A stretch of DNA of 64,000 nt from Silvibacterium acidisoli (lineage in GTDB: Bacteria > Acidobacteriota > Terriglobia > Terriglobales > Acidobacteriaceae): positions 2,728,001 to 2,792,000 of the forward strand of contig CP085323.1 in assembly GCA_022870745.1 (NCBI GenBank), read 5' to 3'. Numbering within the stretch: position 1 is the first letter of the stretch; the number at the start of each line of letters is the position of its first letter. The position numbers were made by a program, and so were the translations under genes. Below, piece after piece: positions 5,940 through 53,380 of the stretch. The notes beneath the pieces were generated by a model. The model was not told the origin of the DNA. It did no database searches and saw nothing but the letters and a program-made list of their open reading frames with translations.

Positions 5940-6929
5940 ATGCATACAGTCTCCTCGATCTTTGTTTTGCCGGAAGCAGCACACACGCCGGTCGGTGCGG
6001 AAGTTTACGCAGGGCTTACCTCACGGCCCAAGACACTCTCGCCATGGCTGTTTTATGACGCCGAAGGTTCGCGGCTCTTCGAGCAGATCACCGATCTGCC
6101 CGAGTATTATCCGACGCGTACCGAAAGGGGAATCTTCGCCGCCAATGCGGACGAGATTCTTGCAGCGGCGCTGGAAGACCGTCCCACGCAGCGGATCATG
6201 ATGCTGGAGCTCGGTGCAGGAACGGCATCGAAGACCGGCCTGCTGCTGCGTGCAGCGGTTCGACGCCAGGAGTCAGTCGACTATCAGGCGATCGACGTTT
6301 CGGAAAGCGCATTGGCTGAGGCCCAGGAGCGGATCGAGGCAGAGATTCCGGGCGTGAATGTGATCCCCTGCATTTCCGATTACACCAACGGCTTCGATGA
6401 GGTGCCTGCGAACGGCTGCCGCCGGATGGTGCTCTACATCGGGTCGAGCATCGGCAACTTTGAGCCGTCCGATGCCGTGCAGGTGCTGCGAACCGTTCGC
6501 CAGAGGCTCGTCCCGGGCGACTGCCTGCTGCTTGGTGTGGACCGCGTGAAGGAGCGTTCGACACTGATTCGTGCCTACGACGACGAAGCCGGTGTGACCG
6601 CTGCATTCAACATGAATGTGCTCACGCGCATCAATCGCGATCTTGGCGCAAACTTTAATCCACGGCTTTTCCGCCACCGCGCGCGCTGGAACAACGAGCA
6701 GTCGCGCATCGAGATGCACCTCGAAAGCCTGATCGCGCAGCAGGTATCGATTCCTTCCCTGGAGCTGGAAGTGCGCTTCACGCGCGGCGAGACGATTCAT
6801 ACCGAAAACAGTTACAAATACACCGAGCAGCGCGTGCACGAGCTGGTAGCCCGCGCCGGCTTTGAGGTGCGGCGTACCTGGACGGACGAGCGGGAGTGGT
6901 TTGGCGTCTACCTTGCTTCAGCGGTCTGA
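5940..6929 (+). CDS. egtD: L-histidine N(alpha)-methyltransferase EgtD
   Basis: 329 residues. Trimethylates histidine to hercynine with S-adenosylmethionine, supplying the substrate of the upstream EgtB. Hallmarks: YDAEGSRLFEQITDLPEYYP at residues 39-58, SAM-binding LELGAGTASKT at 89-99, a YQAIDVSESAL acidic loop, and the MVLYIGSSIGNFE segment. The C-terminal FTRGETIHTENSYKY belongs to the histidine-binding lobe of the family. Its last 12 bases overlap the 3' end of moaC on the opposite strand, so transcription of the two operons converges here without room for a terminator. Confidence 0.95.
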   Translation: MHTVSSIFVLPEAAHTPVGAEVYAGLTSRPKTLSPWLFYDAEGSRLFEQITDLPEYYPTRTERGIFAANADEILAAALEDRPTQRIMMLELGAGTASKTGLLLRAAVRRQESVDYQAIDVSESALAEAQERIEAEIPGVNVIPCISDYTNGFDEVPANGCRRMVLYIGSSIGNFEPSDAVQVLRTVRQRLVPGDCLLLGVDRVKERSTLIRAYDDEAGVTAAFNMNVLTRINRDLGANFNPRLFRHRARWNNEQSRIEMHLESLIAQQVSIPSLELEVRFTRGETIHTENSYKYTEQRVHELVARAGFEVRRTWTDEREWFGVYLASAV

Positions 6930-7409
6930 AGATTCGGGCTGGCCAAAGTGGAAATCTCTGCTCTTGCCGCCGGTTTTGCTCTCGAGCCGCAGCTCGCGGA
7001 TCACGATGCCTTTATCGAGGGCCTTGCACATGTCATAGATGGTGAGCGCGGCCACGGAGGCTGCGGTCAGCGCCTCCATCTCGACTCCTGTTCCGGAAAT
7101 TGTCGCCGCGGTGGTTACGATTTCAATCCCGTTATCCAAAACCCGGCAGCTTACATCGATAAAGCTGAGCGGCAGGGGGTGGCACATGGGAATGAGGTCT
7201 GAAGTTTTCTTCGCGGCCTGAATTCCGGCGAAGCGGGCGACTTCCAATGGGTCTCCCTTGGGGTTTTCCGGCAGAGCTTCGATAACAGCAGGAGAAAGCG
7301 CAACGAAAGCGTAGGCGCGTGCCTCGCGCCGGGTTGCGGCCTTGGCGCTTACATCGACCATGTGTGCCTGGCCATGCTCATCGAAATGTGAAAGTTTCCC
7401 CATAGTCAT
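6918..7409 (-). CDS. moaC: Cyclic pyranopterin monophosphate synthase MoaC
   Basis: 163 residues. Converts the radical-SAM product of MoaA into cyclic pyranopterin monophosphate in molybdenum-cofactor synthesis. Typical segments: GKLSHFDEHGQAHMVDVSAK at the N-terminus, KKTSDLIPMCHPLPLS in the middle, and GVEMEALTAASVAALTIYDM with the catalytic acidic region. Length is normal. It begins 3 nt after moeA on the same strand, so the pair is translationally coupled. An in-frame ATG two codons later could equally be the start. MoaA and the molybdopterin synthase subunits are not in the window. Confidence 0.95.
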   Translation of the reverse strand: MTMGKLSHFDEHGQAHMVDVSAKAATRREARAYAFVALSPAVIEALPENPKGDPLEVARFAGIQAAKKTSDLIPMCHPLPLSFIDVSCRVLDNGIEIVTTAATISGTGVEMEALTAASVAALTIYDMCKALDKGIVIRELRLESKTGGKSRDFHFGQPESSDR

Positions 7410-7412
7410 AGC

Positions 7413-8651
7413 CTAGAGCATCAGCACTGAAACCGTCGTGCCCTCGGGCCATGGGCTTTCGCCTTCGGGTATCAGGGTGAGGGCATTTGCGCGTGAGATT
7501 GCAGCCAGATCGCCAGATCCCTGGTTCGAGATGGTTCGCACCGTTGCGCCGTTCGCTGAACTCTCGATAAACGCAAGCATGAACCGGGTGAGATCTTTCT
7601 TCGGCTGGATCGCCTTGCCCAGCCGTGCTTCGAGAAACTGCGGTCCTGTCTCGCGGCGTCCTGCTAGTCCGGCAAGCAGCGGAGCGGCGAAAAGCGTAAA
7701 GGTCGTGATCGCCGAGAGGGGATTGCCGGGCAGTCCGAAGAAGTACATCGCGCCAGGAATCCTGCCGAAGACGACAGGCTTACCCGGCTGGATGCGCGCC
7801 CCGGTGAAGAAGAACTCCGCGCCGAACTCTGCGAGTGCCTCTTCGACGAAGTCGTATTTCCCCATCGAGACGCCGCCGGAGAGCAGCAGCAGGTCGATAT
7901 CCGACTCCAGCACGCAGCGAATAACATGCATTGTGGATTCGAGGCTGTCGCGCACCACCGGGAAGATGACGGGCTCGCCGCCATGCTGCAGAACCAGTGC
8001 AGCCATCGAGTAGCTGTTCGAATTGCGGATCTGGTGCGGCAGAGGCGTTTCCGAGATGCTTACCAGTTCATCGCCGGTTGAGACGATGGCGACGCGTGGC
8101 CGTAGGAAGACTTCGAGCTCCTCGTATCCGCAGGACGCGGCCGTAGCCAGGTGGTGGGGGCCGAGGACCGTTCCGGGAGCGACGACGACAGAGCCTTGCG
8201 CGGCCTCGGAGCCGATCGGAACGATGTTCTCTCCTGCTGCAAGTCGCTTTCCTGGCTGGGCGGTCAGGGCATCTCCGCTAACGACTGCATGCTCGATCAT
8301 CAGCACGCAGTCAGCGCCCTCTGGTACCGGGGCGCCGGTCATGATTTCGACTGCCTGCCCGCTTGCGATGCGGGGACCGGCCCAGATCTCTCCAGCGCGA
8401 ATGCGCCCAGCAATCTTAAGCGTACTGCCTTGCGTAATATCCGCAGCGAGGCAGGCAAATCCGTCGCGAGTCGACCTGTTAAAGGGCGGCTGGTCGCGGT
8501 CCGCAAGGACTTGTACGGCCAGAACCCGGCCCAACAGCTGGCTGAGGTTCGATGTCAGAGAGAGAATTTCGGTGCGATTCGGGCGGGATGGAAGAGACAG
8601 GGCCTGCTCGCGGACGATCTCCGCGGCCGCTGTATACGAGAAAAGATTCAC
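7413..8651 (-). CDS. moeA: Molybdopterin molybdenumtransferase MoeA
   Basis: 412 residues from the GTG at 8651. Inserts molybdate into adenylylated molybdopterin. Domain order is as in the family: the N-terminal linker and cofactor region (RDQPPFNRSTRDGFACLA), then the MoCF-binding fold with VAIVSTGDELV, LLLSGGVSMGKYDFVEEAL and FGLPGNPLSA, then a C-terminal beta domain. The longest ORF begins at a TTG 51 nt upstream, but that extension would translate the terminator hairpin of the preceding gene, so the GTG (VNLFSYTAAAEIV) is preferred. There is no clear Shine-Dalgarno. A TAAAAT box (8664-8659, minus strand) ends only 7 nt before the GTG, suggesting a very short or leaderless mRNA. moaC follows. 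Confidence 0.93.
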   Translation of the reverse strand: MNLFSYTAAAEIVREQALSLPSRPNRTEILSLTSNLSQLLGRVLAVQVLADRDQPPFNRSTRDGFACLAADITQGSTLKIAGRIRAGEIWAGPRIASGQAVEIMTGAPVPEGADCVLMIEHAVVSGDALTAQPGKRLAAGENIVPIGSEAAQGSVVVAPGTVLGPHHLATAASCGYEELEVFLRPRVAIVSTGDELVSISETPLPHQIRNSNSYSMAALVLQHGGEPVIFPVVRDSLESTMHVIRCVLESDIDLLLLSGGVSMGKYDFVEEALAEFGAEFFFTGARIQPGKPVVFGRIPGAMYFFGLPGNPLSAITTFTLFAAPLLAGLAGRRETGPQFLEARLGKAIQPKKDLTRFMLAFIESSANGATVRTISNQGSGDLAAISRANALTLIPEGESPWPEGTTVSVLML

Positions 8652-43939: not shown

Positions 43940-44614
43940 TTAAGCGACCTGTTCGGCGGCGGCCTGTGCCAGCCGGAGCAACTCCCGGGCATCCCTCTTG
44001 GGATTTCCAGCGCCGTAAACAGCGCTCCCCGCGACCAGCAATTCCGCTCCAGCTTCGACGACCAGCCCGACCGTGTCGTGAGCGACACCGCCATCCACTT
44101 CAATCCTATAGCTTAGGCCCAGTTCCTGGCGAAGTTCTTTAAGCTGCCGGATCTTCTTTAGGGAATAGGGAATAAAACTCTGTCCGCCGAAGCCCGGATT
44201 CACGCTCATCACCAGGACGTGATGAACGATTCCAAGAATCGGAATAATCGCCTCGACCGGCGTTGCGGGGTTAATCACCACTCCCGGCTGCATGCCGTGA
44301 TGGGCAATAAGTTCAAGGCTGCGATGCAGATGGCGGCAGGCCTCGTAATGAACGCTGACCCAGTTCGCACCCGCATCGGCGAAGGCCGGGATAAATTCGT
44401 CCGGATTTTCGATCATCAGGTGGCAATCGAGCGGCAGGTGCGTGACCTTGCGCAGAGACTTCACCACCGGCGGTCCCAGGGTGATGTTCGGGACAAAATG
44501 GCCGTCCATTACATCGACGTGGATGACCGTGCCGCCGCCGTTTTCTGCGGCCTGGACTTCGTCGGCAAGATGCGCGAAATCAGCGGAAAGAATGGATGGA
44601 AGTAGTTCGATCAA
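43940..44614 (-). CDS. rpe: Ribulose-phosphate 3-epimerase
   Basis: 224 residues. TIM-barrel enzyme that interconverts ribulose-5-phosphate and xylulose-5-phosphate in the pentose phosphate pathway. Marks: LLPSILSADFAHLADEVQAA, the metal-site VIHVDVMDGHFVPNITLGPP, MSVNPGFGGQSFI and IEVDGGVAHDT. Normal length. It overlaps the UvrC-like gene by 4 nt (ATGA). Confidence 0.96.
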   Translation of the reverse strand: MIELLPSILSADFAHLADEVQAAENGGGTVIHVDVMDGHFVPNITLGPPVVKSLRKVTHLPLDCHLMIENPDEFIPAFADAGANWVSVHYEACRHLHRSLELIAHHGMQPGVVINPATPVEAIIPILGIVHHVLVMSVNPGFGGQSFIPYSLKKIRQLKELRQELGLSYRIEVDGGVAHDTVGLVVEAGAELLVAGSAVYGAGNPKRDARELLRLAQAAAEQVA

Positions 44615-45909
44615 GATGCTGAAAGTGTATCAGCCGCCGAGGGGGCAATTCCTGCTGCCGATACAGTTTCACCGCCGGAAGCCGCGCCAATCTGCCGATA
44701 TATTTTGGAAATCATTCGCAGCAAAGGCTTTTTCGGCAGTTCTCCGCCTTCTGTGAAAAGAATGTCACCCACTCGCTTCGCCTGCGGACGGTAACACCAC
44801 CGGGTAAAAAGGCAGAGGCTGTCTGCGGTCCGCTGCGGGGTCCAGCCTGCGGAATCTGCCATGGCGGCAAGCGTTGCCAGGGAGGCGTCGAGCCGCGACT
44901 CCAGCTCGTCCCGGGCTGCCAGCTTTACGGTCGTGGCATTGCCGCTTTCGTCGAGCGGAACGGCCTGCAGGGTCGTCGGATGGGCAAAGAGCGAGGAAGA
45001 GCCGGATTGCTCATTCTGATGGCGCATGCCGGCGACCGAGTAGTGGGCCGGTCCGTAGAGATTGCCTGCCTTCAGCAAAAACAACGCGACGCTCTCCGGC
45101 TGCTGCGCTGGCTGCACGATTACGCCATTCATCTGGGTGAGAGCGTGGATGGAGGACGGAATCCCGGAGACGATGCCTTCCACCTTGGCTAGCCGGGCGT
45201 GAATTTCGGCTGCTTTCTCAAATTGCAGCTCTTCGGCGGCACTGTCGCGCTGCCGGCTGAGCGCCTGCACCAGGCTCTGTCCGCGTGTCTCCAGAAATAG
45301 CCGGACAGCTTCGGCTTCCTGCGCGTAGCGCTCGTCGGAGCAGCCCTGGAAACAGGGAGCGAGGCACTTCTTCATCTCCGAGTAAACGCAGCCAGGGAAT
45401 TCGGGGTCGGGGTTGAGATCGTCGGTGCAGCGGCGCAGCTCGAAGAGGTTCAGGATGCTTTCGAGGATGTTTTCCGCAGCGACCCGCGACGGGAACGGCC
45501 CAAACAGGTTTGGCGCTGCCTGTTTCGTGATACGGCTGGTGACGTAGACCCTTGGGTAGGCGTTCTCCATTGCCATGCGCAGCATCACCGGCGGTCTCAG
45601 ATGCAGGCGCTTTTTCACCCGGTCCCCGAAAGCGGCGAGCGAGGCCGAATAAAGCACCAGCCACGCTTCGAATTCCGATCCGGTGAGGGAGTATTCGATG
45701 CGCGCAATGCCCTGCGTCAGGCGCAACCGTTTGGTTTGTTCCTGCCGGGGAGTCAGCAGGCGGCGCAGACGCTGGCGCAGATTCGGCGTGCGGCTGATGT
45801 AAGGCTCGGTCTGGGTGTCGGAGCCGAATAGGGCGAAGACCCCCGCGCTGGCGGGAATCTCTGCCCACTGAGGATTGGCCGGATCGAAAGCGACAGAGAC
45901 AGCCAGCAT
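44611..45909 (-). CDS. UvrC-like protein lacking the C-terminal nuclease, GIY-YIG degenerate
   Basis: 432 residues, much shorter than UvrC (about 600). The start resembles the UvrC GIY-YIG domain, but the tyrosine motifs read GVF (23-25) and YIS (37-39); NLRQRL and the Glu pair in GSEFEAWL remain. FGPFPSRVAAENILESILNL and four cysteines C161, C174, C182 and C186 keep the spacing of the UvrC [4Fe-4S] site within one residue. A UVR helix pair follows (EELQFEKAAEIHARLAKVEG). The RNase H-like nuclease and the tandem HhH domains are missing and replaced by about 180 residues without known motifs. It may be a non-catalytic UvrC paralogue. Between tldE (7 nt) and rpe (4-nt overlap). Confidence 0.82.
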   Translation of the reverse strand: MLAVSVAFDPANPQWAEIPASAGVFALFGSDTQTEPYISRTPNLRQRLRRLLTPRQEQTKRLRLTQGIARIEYSLTGSEFEAWLVLYSASLAAFGDRVKKRLHLRPPVMLRMAMENAYPRVYVTSRITKQAAPNLFGPFPSRVAAENILESILNLFELRRCTDDLNPDPEFPGCVYSEMKKCLAPCFQGCSDERYAQEAEAVRLFLETRGQSLVQALSRQRDSAAEELQFEKAAEIHARLAKVEGIVSGIPSSIHALTQMNGVIVQPAQQPESVALFLLKAGNLYGPAHYSVAGMRHQNEQSGSSSLFAHPTTLQAVPLDESGNATTVKLAARDELESRLDASLATLAAMADSAGWTPQRTADSLCLFTRWCYRPQAKRVGDILFTEGGELPKKPLLRMISKIYRQIGAASGGETVSAAGIAPSAADTLSAS

Positions 45910-45916
45910 CCTGAAC

Positions 45917-47296
45917 CTATTCGCCGGCGATGGTCATGCCGTCAATGCGCAGCGTGGGCGACGCCACCGAGCCGCGGAAGATGAGGTCGCTGCCGATGGC
46001 GGAGATGTTCTGGAACATATCCTTCAGATTGCCGGCGACGGTGATCTCCTGCACAGGGAAGGTCAGCTCGCCGTTCTCGATCCAGAGACCGGAGGCGCCG
46101 CGCGAGTAGTCGCCGGTGACCATGTTCACACCTTGGCCAATCAACTCGGTTACGTAGAGGCCGGCGGGAATGCTCTTCAGGATTTCTTCCGGCGTGAGCG
46201 AACCGGAGACCAGGTAGAGATTGTGCGAGCCCGTTCCCGGATTACCTGACAGTCCGCGCGACGCATTGCCGGTGCTCTTCATGTTGAGCTTGCGGCCGGT
46301 GTAGGTGTTCAGCAGGTAGTTAGTAAGAACGCCGCGCTCGATGATCGTCGTCTTGCGCGAGGGCAGGCCTTCACCATCGAACGGAGAGGTGCCGAAGCCG
46401 CCGACCATGGTGCCGTCGTCGATCACGGTTACAGATTCGTCCGCGACCTTCTCGCCCAGCTTGCCGGTGAAGAATGAGGCGCCGCGGTAGATGCTGTCTC
46501 CGCTGGCCGCGTCGAACATGGACCCGATCAGGGAGCGTGCGATCTCCGGCGCAAAGATGATCGGCACCTGCTGGGTCTTTACGCGCCGTGCGTCAAGCCT
46601 GCGCAAGGTGCGGCGTGCGGCGGTTTCGCCGACAGACTCCGGCGTTTCAAGCTTCGCCAGCGAGCGCGCGTAGGTAAACCAGTAGTCGCGCTGCATCTCG
46701 CCGCTCTTGCCGAGCGCGATGGGGCTGACGGAGATGGAGCAGGAAGACGAACGGTATTCGCCGACAAAGCCGCGCGAGTTGGCGAATACCTTGTGGCCGG
46801 TCGCGGCGTCGAAATTGCCGCCATCGCTGTTGGTGATGCGGGTGTCTGCAGCAAGCGCTGCTGCTTCTGCGCGGCGAGCATGAGCGATGCGTTCTTCCGT
46901 GGGAAGCGAATAGACGTCTTCGTGAAAGAGTTTCAGATCGCCCTCAAGCTGTCCGAACTCCGATGCATCGGCCAGGCCCGCGAATGGATCTTCAGAGGTC
47001 ACACGCGCCAGTGCGACCGCGCCGTTGACCAGATGCTCGATGCCATCGGGAGTGAAGTCGCTCGACGAGGTGCTGGCGACGCGAAAGCCGTTTGATCCGG
47101 CGACCAGGACGCGGATACCCACGCCACGCGAACCCGATTCCTTCAGCGTCTCCACCTCGCCCATGCGGACGGTGGTCGAAAACTCATCGCCCTCGCGGAT
47201 GGTCACCTCGGCATCGTTTGCGCCTGCCTTGAGAGCCTTGGCAACGATATCAGCTGCGAGCGTTTTCAGATCAATTGCTTCGACAGTTGTGCTCAT
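45917..47296 (-). CDS. tldE: TldE/PmbA metalloprotease subunit
   Basis: 459 residues, partner of TldD. PmbA-family marks: GANDAEVTIREGDEFSTTVR, GVGIRVLVAGSNGFRVAST, and the C-terminal MKSTGNASRGLSGNPGTGSH and ELIGQGVNMVTGDYSRGASG, then LWIENGELTFPVQEITVAGN. It lacks the HExxxH zinc site, as expected for TldE. In E. coli the TldD/TldE heterodimer degrades unfolded peptides and trims microcin B17 and the CcdA antitoxin. It overlaps tldD by 4 nt. Confidence 0.93.
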   Translation of the reverse strand: MSTTVEAIDLKTLAADIVAKALKAGANDAEVTIREGDEFSTTVRMGEVETLKESGSRGVGIRVLVAGSNGFRVASTSSSDFTPDGIEHLVNGAVALARVTSEDPFAGLADASEFGQLEGDLKLFHEDVYSLPTEERIAHARRAEAAALAADTRITNSDGGNFDAATGHKVFANSRGFVGEYRSSSCSISVSPIALGKSGEMQRDYWFTYARSLAKLETPESVGETAARRTLRRLDARRVKTQQVPIIFAPEIARSLIGSMFDAASGDSIYRGASFFTGKLGEKVADESVTVIDDGTMVGGFGTSPFDGEGLPSRKTTIIERGVLTNYLLNTYTGRKLNMKSTGNASRGLSGNPGTGSHNLYLVSGSLTPEEILKSIPAGLYVTELIGQGVNMVTGDYSRGASGLWIENGELTFPVQEITVAGNLKDMFQNISAIGSDLIFRGSVASPTLRIDGMTIAGE

Positions 47297-48753
47297 CGGC
47301 CCGTGCCACCCACCGTCATGCGATCCAGCTTAATCGTAGGCATACCCACACCCACCGGCACGCTCTGCCCATCCTTGCCGCAGGTGCCGATGCCTTCATC
47401 GAGCGCCAGGTCATGGCCGACCATCGAGACATACTTCAGCGCCTCAGGACCATTGCCGATCAGCGTTGCGTCCTTCACCGGGGCGGTGATCTTGCCGTCT
47501 TCGATCAGGTAGGCCTCGCTGGCGGAGAAGACGAACTTGCCGCTGACGATATCCACTGACCCGCCGCCGAAGTTCACCGCGTACAGGCCGCGCTTTACGC
47601 TGCGCAGGATGTCTTCCGGCGCGTCATCGCCCGAGAGCATGTACGTGTTCGTCATGCGCGGCATGGGAATCTGCTGGTAGCTTTCACGTCGACCGTTGCC
47701 GGTGTGGCCCATCTTCATCAGCCGCGAGGACAGCTTGTCGCTCAGGTAGGTCTTAAGGATGCCGTTTTCGATCAGCACCGTCTCCTGCGTGGCCGAACCC
47801 TCATCGTCTACATTCAATGACCCGCGGCGTCCGGCCATAGTTCCGTTATCGACTACGGTGACCTTTGAGCTAGCCACCTGCTGGCCGATCAGGCCGGAAA
47901 ATGCAGAGGTCTTGCGGCGGTTGAAGTCGGCTTCGAGACCGTGTCCTACTGCTTCGTGCAGCAGCACGCCCGGCCATCCGGGGCCGAGAACCACTTCCAT
48001 CTCGCCTGCGGGTGCTGCCACGGCGCCAAGCTGCAAAACAGCCTGCCGGGCTGCCTCGCGGGCAAAGTGCTCCGGCGATTTGTCCAGCTCGAAGAAGTCG
48101 ATCTCAACACGGCCGCCGCCACCCGAAGTCCCGCGTGCCGTGCGCTCGTTTTCCTTTGCCAGGATGAATACATTCAGGCGGGCCAGCGGCTGCGTGTCAC
48201 TGGCGAAGGTGCCGTCGGAGGCGGCTACCAGGATCCGGCGTATCTCATCGGAGTAGCTGGCGCGAACCTGCGTGATGCGCGAGTCAAAGGCGCGCGCGGC
48301 CTTGTCGGCACGCATGACCAGTTCGAGCTTCTTGGCGAGGTCGGTATCCAGCTCGACTGCTGGCGCAGGATAGAGATTCGGCGACTTCGTTTCGGTAAAT
48401 CCCTGTACCGGCTGCTTGGCCGGGCCGCTGGCGATCAGGGCCGCAGTCCGTGCCGCGCGCAGCAGGCGATCGGCGCTCAGGTCGTCGGTGTAGGCGTACC
48501 CGGTTCGCTCGCCGCTGACCACCCGAATGCCGCACCCGGCGCTGACGCCCTGGCTGGCCGATTTCACCAGCAACTCGTCTATCCCGATGGATGTGGATGC
48601 AACCGACTCAAAATAAAGGTCGGCGTAATCTCCCCCGGCAGACAGTGCCTCGCCAAGGCACCGTTCGAGCAGCCGTTCGGTGATGCCGAACTTGTCGAAA
48701 AAATAGCGTTTGTGGTCGCCGCTGGCGCCTGCGTGTGCTTGGGCTGGGGTCAT
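47293..48753 (-). CDS. tldD: TldD metalloprotease catalytic subunit
   Basis: 486 residues. The zinc motif HEAVGH (HExxxH) is at residues 266-271, with a late Cys in GTCGKDGQSVPVG near residue 459, the probable third ligand. Other family segments: SAGCGIRVVSGERTGYAYTD and FRMTNTYMLSGDD-like. It is the first gene of the minus-strand operon and stands divergent, with a 116-bp gap, from the short His/Arg peptide at 48870. Cytoplasmic, acts with TldE. Confidence 0.93.
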   Translation of the reverse strand: MTPAQAHAGASGDHKRYFFDKFGITERLLERCLGEALSAGGDYADLYFESVASTSIGIDELLVKSASQGVSAGCGIRVVSGERTGYAYTDDLSADRLLRAARTAALIASGPAKQPVQGFTETKSPNLYPAPAVELDTDLAKKLELVMRADKAARAFDSRITQVRASYSDEIRRILVAASDGTFASDTQPLARLNVFILAKENERTARGTSGGGGRVEIDFFELDKSPEHFAREAARQAVLQLGAVAAPAGEMEVVLGPGWPGVLLHEAVGHGLEADFNRRKTSAFSGLIGQQVASSKVTVVDNGTMAGRRGSLNVDDEGSATQETVLIENGILKTYLSDKLSSRLMKMGHTGNGRRESYQQIPMPRMTNTYMLSGDDAPEDILRSVKRGLYAVNFGGGSVDIVSGKFVFSASEAYLIEDGKITAPVKDATLIGNGPEALKYVSMVGHDLALDEGIGTCGKDGQSVPVGVGMPTIKLDRMTVGGTGR

Positions 48754-48980: not shown

Positions 48981-49034
48981 GTTCGACCGGCATGCAGCAA
49001 GGGCATGCCGGCCGGTCCTCCGTCTGAAAGATTT

Positions 49035-49559
49035 ATGACCTCCGATCCGCGCTATCCTATCGGCCACTTCGTCCCTCCCGAAGACATGCTTGCAGCGACG
49101 CCGGGCGCGATCGCTGCCATCGCTGCTTTTCCTGAAGAACTGGCCACCGCGCTCGAAGGTTTGTCTGCCGCAGAGGTTGATACCCCTTACCGCGAAGACG
49201 GCTGGACGGTGCGTCAGCTGGTGCATCATGTTGCCGACAGCCATATGCATGCGAACATCCGCATGCGTCTTGCTCTTACAGAAGACTGGCCGAAGATCGT
49301 CACCTACGAAGAGCATCTCTGGGCTCGCCTGCTGGATGCCTGTACTCTGCCGGTTGAATTCAGCCTCGATCTGCTGCGGCCCCTGCACTATCGCTGGGCC
49401 AGCCTGCTGCAATCGCTCGACGGCAAGGATTGGGAACGTGGCTACGTGCATCCGGAGAGCGGACGCACCACCGTTCGCCAGGCGCTGCATCGTTACGTCT
49501 GGCATGGCCGCCATCACATCGCTCACATCACCGAGTTACGAAAGAATAAGGGTTGGTAG
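49035..49559 (+). CDS. DinB-fold protein of the YfiT/BstA type
   Basis: 174 residues from the ATG at 49035; a 10-codon extension is possible. Four-helix metal-binding fold. Histidines in VRQLVHHVADSHMHANI (H64/H65) and YVWHGRHHIAHI (H160, H164) match the three nickel/zinc ligands of Bacillus YfiT. The N-terminal DPRYPIGHFVPP is typical of that subgroup. Relatives are thiol S-transferases (bacillithiol) or putative metal hydrolases; the thiol here is unknown. It follows the short peptide by 54 nt and precedes the nuclease-like protein by 49 nt. Confidence 0.88.
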   Translation: MTSDPRYPIGHFVPPEDMLAATPGAIAAIAAFPEELATALEGLSAAEVDTPYREDGWTVRQLVHHVADSHMHANIRMRLALTEDWPKIVTYEEHLWARLLDACTLPVEFSLDLLRPLHYRWASLLQSLDGKDWERGYVHPESGRTTVRQALHRYVWHGRHHIAHITELRKNKGW

Positions 49560-49608: not shown

Positions 49609-51183
49609 ATGGCCCAGATCGTAGAAAGTGTCGCCGAACGAAGTGCTTCAACCGCCCCGCAGCTTGCCTCACAGATAGAAGAATTCCTCACTGCATCACC
49701 AAAGTCCGTCGTGCTTGAAGACGGACGCATCCTCTTCGACATGCAGGTGGCGCGTTACTCGCTTTCGAGCGAGCAAGGGCGATGCATGCTTCATCTGTGG
49801 TCTGGCGACAGAAACCTCGTTCGGACTGTTACAGCGGTCCGCATCCGAAAAAACTCGCTGCGTCTTGAAGTACGCCGGTTCGGCCAGTCAAAGCCGCAGG
49901 CAATGGAGCTAGTCGCCGACCGCGATCGACGTCCTCCCGGTACCCGCCAGACCACGCGGACGAAGTACCTGCGAATGCTGGAGCGGGTTTCGACGGCATA
50001 CTTTCCCGGCTACACACTGGATGGACTGACCACCGCCGCGGACCTCGAACACAGCTTCGGACCTGCATACGCACGCGGCACGCTCAGGAAAGGCAATGCA
50101 GCGTGGGCAGTCATCGGCATCAACGAGCAGGAATCGCCAGCCATCATCGATGGCATTCTCACCATCGGCATCCTCTGGCTTGCACACTGCCGTGCGACAG
50201 GCAGCGGCAACCGGCATGTCGAAGGGCTGAAGATCATCGTGCCTGCGGGAACCGGCCAGAACACCCAATCGCGCATGCGCTGGTTGCGCACGTCAGTTGC
50301 ACAGTGGGAATTGTTTGAGCTCGACGAGCGCAGCGAAAGGCTCATGCCGCTCGACTGGCAGGACAGCGGCAATCTGCATGTCGAGCTTGTCCATGCTTTT
50401 CAGCCAGAGGCCACCCTGGAACGCATGGCTGCTGCGGTCGATTCCGTGCTGAACATGCTTTCGCCGGGCCTCAGGCGAGTGACCGAGCTTCGTCCACGCG
50501 GCCCCAACGAGATCGCTCTTCTTCTCCACGGGTTGGAGTATGCCCGCATCCGCCACGGCTACGCCGCAGGCTCGTTCAGCCGGCAGGACCAGGTGACCTT
50601 CGGTGCCGGTGCGAACGAGACCGGGCTCACATCCGCGACCGAAGATCTTTTCCGCGAGCTGACCCAGAAGCTCTTCGAGCACCGGCATGCGGGCGGTAGC
50701 ATGCGCGATCCGCTCTATCGGCTGCAGCCGGAGCGTTGGCTTGAAAGCGCATTGCGTTCCGAGATTTCAGAGATAGAACCGGCGCTGCGGACAGAGTTTT
50801 TATACTCGCAGGTTCCAGCTTTTTCAGCGGGCGACCGCGCCATGCTCGACCTGCTTACCGTAAACCAGTCAGGCCGCTTAGTCGTGATGGAGCTGAAGGC
50901 CGACGACGACCTGCACCTGCCGGTACAGGCGCTCGATTACTGGGCGCGAGTGCGGCAATTGCAGCGCGAAGGGGCATTCCAGCCACATGGCTACTTCCCG
51001 GGTACCGAACTCTCTCCGCTGCCGCCGATACTTTATCTGGTTGCACCCGCGCTGCGTATCCATCCATCTACGGATACAGTGCTGCGGCATCTCTCGCCAG
51101 AGATTCCGTGGGAACTGATTGGACTGAATGAAGGCTGGAGGAGGGATCGAAAGGTCATCCTGCGTAAACGGAGCGCAGGATGA
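49609..51183 (+). CDS. Unrecognised protein with C-terminal PD-(D/E)XK nuclease signature
   Basis: 524 residues, not recognised as a whole. The C-terminal third (about 375-450) shows the PD-(D/E)XK pattern: a helix with E379, D414 in AMLDLLTVNQ, E428-L429-K430 in GRLVVMELKADDD, then Q440xxxY444 in PVQALDYWARV. This acid-ExK-QxxxY layout is that of RecB-, Cas4- and NucS-type nucleases. Residues 1-370 are alpha/beta without a motif I can name. There is no signal peptide or membrane segment, so it should be cytoplasmic. The start ATG has no strong Shine-Dalgarno. Convergent with guaB (22-nt gap). May cut DNA or RNA or may only bind; function unknown. Confidence 0.75.
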   Translation: MAQIVESVAERSASTAPQLASQIEEFLTASPKSVVLEDGRILFDMQVARYSLSSEQGRCMLHLWSGDRNLVRTVTAVRIRKNSLRLEVRRFGQSKPQAMELVADRDRRPPGTRQTTRTKYLRMLERVSTAYFPGYTLDGLTTAADLEHSFGPAYARGTLRKGNAAWAVIGINEQESPAIIDGILTIGILWLAHCRATGSGNRHVEGLKIIVPAGTGQNTQSRMRWLRTSVAQWELFELDERSERLMPLDWQDSGNLHVELVHAFQPEATLERMAAAVDSVLNMLSPGLRRVTELRPRGPNEIALLLHGLEYARIRHGYAAGSFSRQDQVTFGAGANETGLTSATEDLFRELTQKLFEHRHAGGSMRDPLYRLQPERWLESALRSEISEIEPALRTEFLYSQVPAFSAGDRAMLDLLTVNQSGRLVVMELKADDDLHLPVQALDYWARVRQLQREGAFQPHGYFPGTELSPLPPILYLVAPALRIHPSTDTVLRHLSPEIPWELIGLNEGWRRDRKVILRKRSAG

Positions 51184-52882: not shown

Positions 52883-53380
52883 TCAGTGTGACGGCGCAAA
52901 ATCTCTCGCAATCTTCTCGAGCTGCTGCAGGTGGTTCAGGTCATGGCCGCCCATGGTCTCGAGGATTGAGCGAAAGGTCAGCTCGCCTCGTTCCGGGTGA
53001 AAAGCCGCCTTCTGCTGCTCTTCGGCGGGGATGGATCGAACCAGGGCAACGTTCCAACGGCGCAGGGAGCTGAACATGGTGAGGGCTTCCTGCTCGTCGT
53101 ACGCAGCGTAGTTCCTGCCCCAGAGATCCTGGTCCCATGGCTGGATGGTGTGGTGATCCTCAGCCAGGATCTGCCGCAGCCGGTATGAGAAGGCGATTTC
53201 CGCGTCTGCGAGGTGGCAGACGATCTCCCGTGGACTCCATTTGCCCGGTGCCGGTGCCTGGTTTGCACGCTCCGAGCCCAGCTCTTCAAAGATCTGTTCG
53301 ATTCGCCGGGGAGTGGCGGCGATCACCTTGAGCGGGTCTAGCGGACCCAGTTGCTCGGCGTAAGGATTTTCTCGACTCAT
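52883..53380 (-). CDS. DinB-superfamily protein
   Basis: 165 residues. DinB four-helix fold with the usual three histidines: H56 in PREIVCHLADAE, and H146 and H150 in MGGHDLNHLQQL. The N-terminal GKWSPREI preceding the first ligand is typical. Distinct from the YfiT-like protein at 49 kb. Substrate unknown; relatives handle thiols or are metal hydrolases. A hairpin (53390-53415) lies just before its start. Confidence 0.88.
   Translation of the reverse strand: MSRENPYAEQLGPLDPLKVIAATPRRIEQIFEELGSERANQAPAPGKWSPREIVCHLADAEIAFSYRLRQILAEDHHTIQPWDQDLWGRNYAAYDEQEALTMFSSLRRWNVALVRSIPAEEQQKAAFHPERGELTFRSILETMGGHDLNHLQQLEKIARDFAPSH

Follow-up and report, generated by a model that had tools for sequence, protein, structure and literature searches.

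P0001, a protein of 524 residues encoded in a 64,000-nucleotide stretch of the Silvibacterium acidisoli genome (hereafter the window, meaning the whole stretch that was analysed), is a new variant of the NucS-type nucleases, with a front half of its own and a core-gene distribution in its own taxonomic family, the Acidobacteriaceae. Its PD-(D/E)XK nuclease domain is, to judge from the sequence, almost surely intact, and a repair role is its best-supported function; on balance, P0001 is probably an active chromosomal housekeeping DNA-repair endonuclease. The initial annotation had offered a repair nuclease, a defence nuclease or a dead relative, and repair, as a predicted role, is the better of these options. 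The coordinates of the features discussed are given in Table 1.

Table 1. Features of the P0001 locus, in window coordinates.
Feature	Position	Strand	Basis or remark
524-aa nuclease gene (P0001)	49609..51183	+	ATG start; whole ORF
N-terminal part, residues 15-340, no sequence family	49651..50628	+	model; fast-changing
C-terminal PD-(D/E)XK nuclease domain, residues 345-524	50641..51180	+	NucS 2vld profile match; domain model
E379, acid on helix before core	50743..50745	+	E in 98/101 homologues
D414	50848..50850	+	invariant, 101/101 homologues
E428-x-K430	50890..50898	+	invariant, 101/101 homologues
Q440-xxx-Y444	50926..50940	+	invariant, 101/101 homologues
DinB-fold (YfiT-type thiol transferase) gene	49005..49559	+	directly upstream, 49-base gap, same strand
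Two PmbA/TldD-family genes	45917..48753	-	Pfam; conserved own-family neighbours

The open reading frame is real, as first described, and the complete PD-(D/E)XK signature of NucS or RecB type that had been reported in this unrecognised protein is present with the residues as named: positions 379, 414, 428, 430, 440 and 444 are E, D, E, K, Q and Y, and D414, E428 and K430 supply the acid and the subsequent (D/E)xK in the order expected of the fold. In an alignment of 101 distinct homologues (61 from the own taxonomic family and 40 from outside it), D414, E428, K430, Q440 and Y444 are the same and equally spaced in every sequence, so that none of these key residues varies freely, and E375, Q401, W445, F463, P480 and W510 are likewise invariant; position 379 is E in 98 sequences, D in two and A in one. 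The exact spacing D-x13-E-x-K-x9-Q-x3-Y, found in 101/101 homologues, arose in only 1 of 20000 residue shuffles of P0001 and is therefore beyond chance (a looser form of the motif arose in 35 of 20000). The mass of P0001 (58.9 kDa) is close to the median of the 101 homologues (59.4 kDa). Outside the own taxonomic family, the nuclease domain is 31-48% identical to that of P0001 (median 37%), and the N-terminal part 11-30% (median 18%), a pattern of sequence conservation which is that of a working nuclease whose front half evolves quickly.

P0001 matches nothing in Pfam or NCBIfam at E<=1, and searches with the sequence alone against Pfam, NCBIfam and the PDB returned nothing useful. When a profile of the domain was compared with PDB sequences, NucS (2vld) came first (E 2.5e-4) and Card1 next (E 1e-3), with a non-significant match to EndoMS (E 0.86). 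The current, split NucS_C model does not match P0001 at E<=1 and matches 4 of the 53 family members (best 0.062); three of the 53 match an MmcB-like model weakly (best 0.0054), and the genome from which the window comes has no NucS_C match at E<=0.01. By profile comparison, the nuclease domain is related to NucS. Like P0001, NucS/EndoMS (PF01939; PDB 2vld, 5gke) has D-x13-E-x-K and then QxxxY in the profile alignment, but it is about 250 aa long against the 524 of P0001, and the N-terminal parts are unrelated by sequence.

A structural model of the domain, built from three sequences and of low-to-moderate confidence (pLDDT 62, pTM 0.61), contains a helix (374-389), strands 415-419 and 424-429, a helix (436-453), a strand (474-480), a helix (486-495) and a strand (501-506), which is the element order of a PD-(D/E)XK fold in which the first core strand is not resolved. 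This moderate-confidence model agrees with the fold expected by the initial annotation, in that it places D414 just ahead of one strand, E428 in the next and K430 just behind it; Q440 and Y444 lie on the helix after the E428 strand (pLDDT 62). The best matches of the domain model in the PDB are Shedu (at the head), EndoMS, FokI and Card1, with E-values of 0.014-0.067 and none <=0.001, and we take the first nine rows (E 0.014-0.11) to be nucleases of the PD-(D/E)XK fold. In a viral structure library, Gp54 of Bacillus phage G was the best match (5.1e-4), followed by an MmcB-family protein. Card1, Shedu (SduA), MmcB-like proteins and FokI have the fold or a profile similarity in common with the P0001 domain, but their E-values are weak, their overall architecture is another one, and P0001 passes no Pfam cut-off for them.

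The remark that the first 370 residues resemble nothing known is true at the sequence level: the N-terminal 340 residues belong to no family in Pfam or NCBIfam at E<=1, and a profile of residues 15-262 found nothing below E 0.16 among PDB sequences. The full-length model has a mean pLDDT of 55, with most of 351-524 below 50, for which reason the C-terminal half is described from the domain model instead. At this confidence (pLDDT 55) it shows a beta-rich module (34-102) and then a mixed alpha/beta stretch (112-239), made up of a helix (112-131), strands 136-143, 154-161 and 164-171 with a short helix (147-150) between the first two, a helix (177-197), a strand (203-212), a helix (216-225) and a strand (231-239); the element order in 112-239 is that of a PD-(D/E)XK domain. 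By the criterion applied, no acidic residue in 105-260 is conserved both within and outside the own taxonomic family. Foldseek placed EndoMS first for the full model (E 1.6e-4, probability 1.00, 261 columns), with TM-scores of only 0.18 and 0.34; rows 2 and 3 are acetyl-CoA carboxylase, which is plainly unrelated, and XisH-family structures stand at ranks 6 and 10 (2inb, probability 1.00; 2okf, 0.99) and are absent among the 50 matches listed for the domain model. A profile comparison of residues 105-260 with 345-524 was not significant (P 0.057, 39 columns, probability 0.9%), although the 39-column stretch that it aligned is the expected strand-helix-strand. An internal duplication of the nuclease domain is a hypothesis suggested by these models, against which stands the high rank of the unrelated carboxylase in the same Foldseek list, and on the same modelled basis the front half may be NucS-like, its own nuclease domain being dead. 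A fuller proposal, which we regard as speculative and rather unlikely, is that P0001 might be a two-module enzyme, in which a NucS-like front (a beta module and a PD-(D/E)XK domain without an active site) would be fused to an active NucS-type nuclease and give Acidobacteriota lineages a further core route, next to MutS and uracil-DNA glycosylase (UDG), for dealing with deaminated or abasic DNA.

The distribution of the gene is that of a core gene in its own taxonomic family. A search with P0001 found it in 277 of 300 own-family genomes, 201 of the 207 of good quality and 75 of 79 genera, with one match in the window's own genome. As yardsticks, MutS_I was found in 98 of 100 own-family genomes, the window's included (95/97 of good quality), UDG in 100 of 100 (97/97), and HSDR_N, a marker of type I restriction, in 38 of 100 (36/97). 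Across the phylum Acidobacteriota, the P0001 search matched 87 of 297 genomes and a 53-row profile of the protein family matched 104, with a wide gap in the scores: 86 genomes lie above it at E 4.1e-44 or better, and 18 below it, at 7.5e-10 or worse and over the nuclease domain only. One genome (G392) is in the set of 87 but outside the 86, and at the matched place it has a protein of PDC-S11, a PADLOC candidate defence system. Because of the wide gap and the identity of this match, the nuclease family is sharply bounded. The 86 genomes are spread over 18 taxonomic families, f1 among them, and most of the sampled phylum genomes are without it. No match at E 0.01 was found among 72,556 plasmid or 50,697 phage records, and a scan of viral contigs with two single-protein queries, sensitive to close relatives only, gave no confirmed relative. 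The whole-genome searches covered the Acidobacteriota; one scan of genome contigs, for close relatives only, gave two loci. Pairwise distances between the nucleases track those of the neighbouring TldD-family genes (r 0.68 over 15 loci and 0.78 over 17 loci, neither reached in any of 2000 permutations), which is what inheritance of the locus as one unit would give.

The DinB-fold and TldDE neighbours reported by the initial annotation were both identified, as a DinB_2/YfiT-type gene and as TldD/TldE. Initial neighbour calls followed a longest-ORF rule, which errs in G+C-rich DNA (in the window it picked an antisense ORF instead of the DinB-fold gene), and the counts for the DinB-fold gene and for the GDSL esterase gene considered below are hence from tblastn. 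Once 16 duplicates had been removed by hand, there were 58 distinct own-family loci with at least 700 bases upstream, and 48 of them have a DinB-fold homologue ahead of the nuclease gene on the same strand. The spacing runs from a 50-base overlap to a 400-base gap in 30 of the 48 and is 451-485 bases in nine; in the other nine the homologue overlaps the start of the nuclease ORF, a start that was probably set too far upstream. The homologue is lacking in ten loci, L029 and those of nine members that are more distant, and none of 41 loci outside the own taxonomic family has one, that of the PDC-S11 protein included. Of the 21 own-family loci with long flanking sequence, 17 have TldD/TldE-family genes nearby. 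Neighbours change between clades, with enoyl-CoA hydratase, thiolase, TruB and dihydroorotase (Pfam), among others, found elsewhere, and in some clades SelB, Ffh, rpsP and trmD, which we presume from the heads of their sequences. Two further genes of the window may be mentioned here: a second DinB_2-family gene at 52883-53380 (- strand), beyond an IMP dehydrogenase gene, and a 432-aa ORF at 44611-45909 (- strand), which has no Pfam match at E 1e-5 and belongs to a cluster present again in 12 of the 21 own-family loci that were compared. The initial annotation reported no classical restriction or defence partner nearby; in a PADLOC scan of nine neighbouring window proteins, only IF-2 gave a match at E<=0.001, a weak one to a GTPase. 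Of 100 neighbour ORFs, 85 were scanned against Pfam, and the 25 most frequent of the 85 families to which they matched include none linked to defence.

As to mechanism, residues 345-524 would act as a PD-(D/E)XK nuclease of NucS/RecB type, in which, by analogy with such enzymes, D414 and E428 would hold the metal ion or ions, K430 would help hydrolysis and the helix with Q440 and Y444 would complete the motif. The family-specific N-terminal part (15-340) most likely serves DNA binding and the choice of substrate, and the likely substrate, by way of the probable relative DV-NucS considered below, would be DNA with a deaminated or abasic site. We infer catalysis, DNA as substrate, the type of lesion and the N-terminal role alike, and uracil/abasic specificity is a lead drawn by analogy. 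P0001 would work beside MutS mismatch repair and uracil-DNA glycosylase and not in place of them; replacement of a missing uracil or mismatch pathway was rejected, with UDG in 100/100 and MutS_I in 98/100 own-family genomes. Some points count against the repair reading: with MutS and UDG present, an extra repair step is not required as essential, most of the phylum is without the gene (86/297 genomes hold the family), and the domain model is of moderate confidence only.

Near-universal presence, the yardsticks and the lack of any relative in the plasmid, phage and viral collections searched favour a housekeeping nuclease over a defence nuclease or a dead protein. That P0001 is a single-gene anti-phage defence nuclease related to PDC-S11 is unlikely. 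PDC-S11 models do match residues 374-458 (5.9e-7 to 1.8e-6), one such model hits 49 of the 53 family members, Shedu nucleases, which are a defence family, head the structure matches of the domain model, and one relative (L075) has a Uma2 gene, in Pfam a 'putative restriction endonuclease', two genes upstream. Against this, the PDC-S11 match is confined to the nuclease core (5.9e-7 over residues 374-454) and a true PDC-S11 protein, L101, scores 1.3e-68; in PDC-S11, which is shorter, this related core is N-terminal (model positions 26-104 of 379) and in P0001 it is C-terminal, and P0001 shows no full-length match with an N-terminal nuclease. Among good-quality own-family genomes, 201 of 207 carry the gene and 36 of 97 the restriction marker, the plasmid, phage and viral-contig searches found no mobile copy, and the scanned neighbours in the window are without a defence gene, the weak IF-2 match apart. 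Near-universality in its own taxonomic family and the lack of a mobile copy in these searches speak against the defence reading. That P0001 has lost catalysis and is retained as a binding protein is highly improbable: nothing in P0001 itself speaks for it, the split of one relative (L100) into two frames being the only pointer, and the active-site residues are strictly conserved, with the motif invariant in all 101 homologues while the N-terminal part drops to 11-30% identity outside the own taxonomic family.

It is also improbable that P0001 acts on RNA or is tied to translation instead of DNA repair. Neighbours in several clades would fit such a role (TruB by Pfam, and SelB, Ffh, rpsP and trmD as presumed above), but they vary from clade to clade, the nearest neighbours in the own taxonomic family are the DinB-fold gene and TldD/TldE, and among solved structures the profile comes closest to NucS, a DNA endonuclease. 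That same NucS match, the best of the domain profile in the PDB, together with the first rank of EndoMS in the Foldseek list of the full model, could suggest a true NucS/EndoMS orthologue in mismatch repair, which we consider very unlikely. NucS_C does not match P0001 at E<=1 and reaches only 4/53 members (best 0.062), and the N-terminal part of P0001 has about three times the length of its NucS counterpart; NucS from P. abyssi has a two-part layout with an N-terminal DNA-binding part of 1-114 (PMC5290159). Nor does P0001 stand in for a missing MutS-MutL, with MutS_I in 98 of 100 own-family genomes.

A possible link to a characterised enzyme comes from a clade of the phylum (f20) in which, by tblastn, 13 of 19 loci (L091, L092, L093 and L140-L149) have a gene for a GDSL esterase that either overlaps the nuclease start or adjoins it. 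These include 12 of the 13 loci of genus g111, the remaining one being cut near a contig end and having an opposite-direction gene upstream. GDSL esterases are often annotated as lysophospholipase. The ten f20 proteins beside an esterase whose masses were computed come to 54.9-57.2 kDa. In Antarctic Dry Valley metagenomes, NucS-like proteins of a 'Cluster 2' are N-terminally extended, some to >500 aa, and a 'putative lysophospholipase' lies directly upstream of their genes in 4/4 contigs examined (PMC10140301). In 18-hour incubations, one of them, DV-NucS (58.8 kDa; gene Ga0136640_100017415), degraded single strands and also cleaved duplexes, both at abasic sites and where uracil stood opposite A or T; as far as the sections of that report used here go, the study was without an active-site mutant, its authors calling for such mutants, and the host phylum of Cluster 2 is not given (PMC10140301). 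Like P0001, Cluster 2 proteins have a long N-terminal extension and a C-terminal NucS-like domain, and the mass of DV-NucS is close to the 58.9 kDa of P0001, though this is likeness by the published description and not by sequence. The upstream lysophospholipase-type gene recalls the GDSL gene of f20, but the window has the DinB-fold gene instead. The reported Cluster 2 match to the NucS profile (3.5e-6) is stronger than that of any of the 53 members here (0.062, with the current split NucS_C model), and the conserved extension is given as 100 residues (PMC10140301). From gene order, size and description, DV-NucS and P0001 probably belong to one family. A distant relative may already have been assayed in the laboratory with its link to the P0001 family unmade; a search of the literature on NucS with uracil and an N-terminal extension found no study besides this one, and a narrow all-terms search found no published account of an Acidobacteriota core nuclease.

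Several relatives depart from the usual form. In L100 (genome G530) the homologue is split into an N-terminal-like frame and a separate 184-aa nuclease-domain frame, at 6311-7108 and about 7203-7637, directly before TruB. Two homologues of genus g65, L102 (7481-9376) and L103 (6490-8457), are 631 and 655 aa long; additional stretches break up the sequence immediately ahead of the nuclease domain and within its beginning, and the profile aligns with them piecewise. L101 (7355-8365, genome G392) clearly belongs to the PDC-S11 candidate defence proteins and has the related nuclease domain N-terminally. In genome G382, five frames of 528-574 aa match NucS_C weakly and with almost the same score; four of them lie within 30 kb (contig C2 467992-496501; contig C1 1572440-1572637 has the other), and they represent a repeated gene that is perhaps mobile.

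For the analysis of defence systems, the PDC-S11 comparison means that a match to a candidate defence model can stem from a housekeeping protein by way of a common nuclease core. For the Acidobacteriaceae, a protein that neither Pfam nor NCBIfam recognises, but whose active site stays constant and which almost all of the good-quality genomes examined encode, suggests that DNA processing includes a step beyond the usual set. If P0001 is of the same family as DV-NucS, a lead to the substrate and an assay already exist, and a genetic test in cultured members of the family would be direct.
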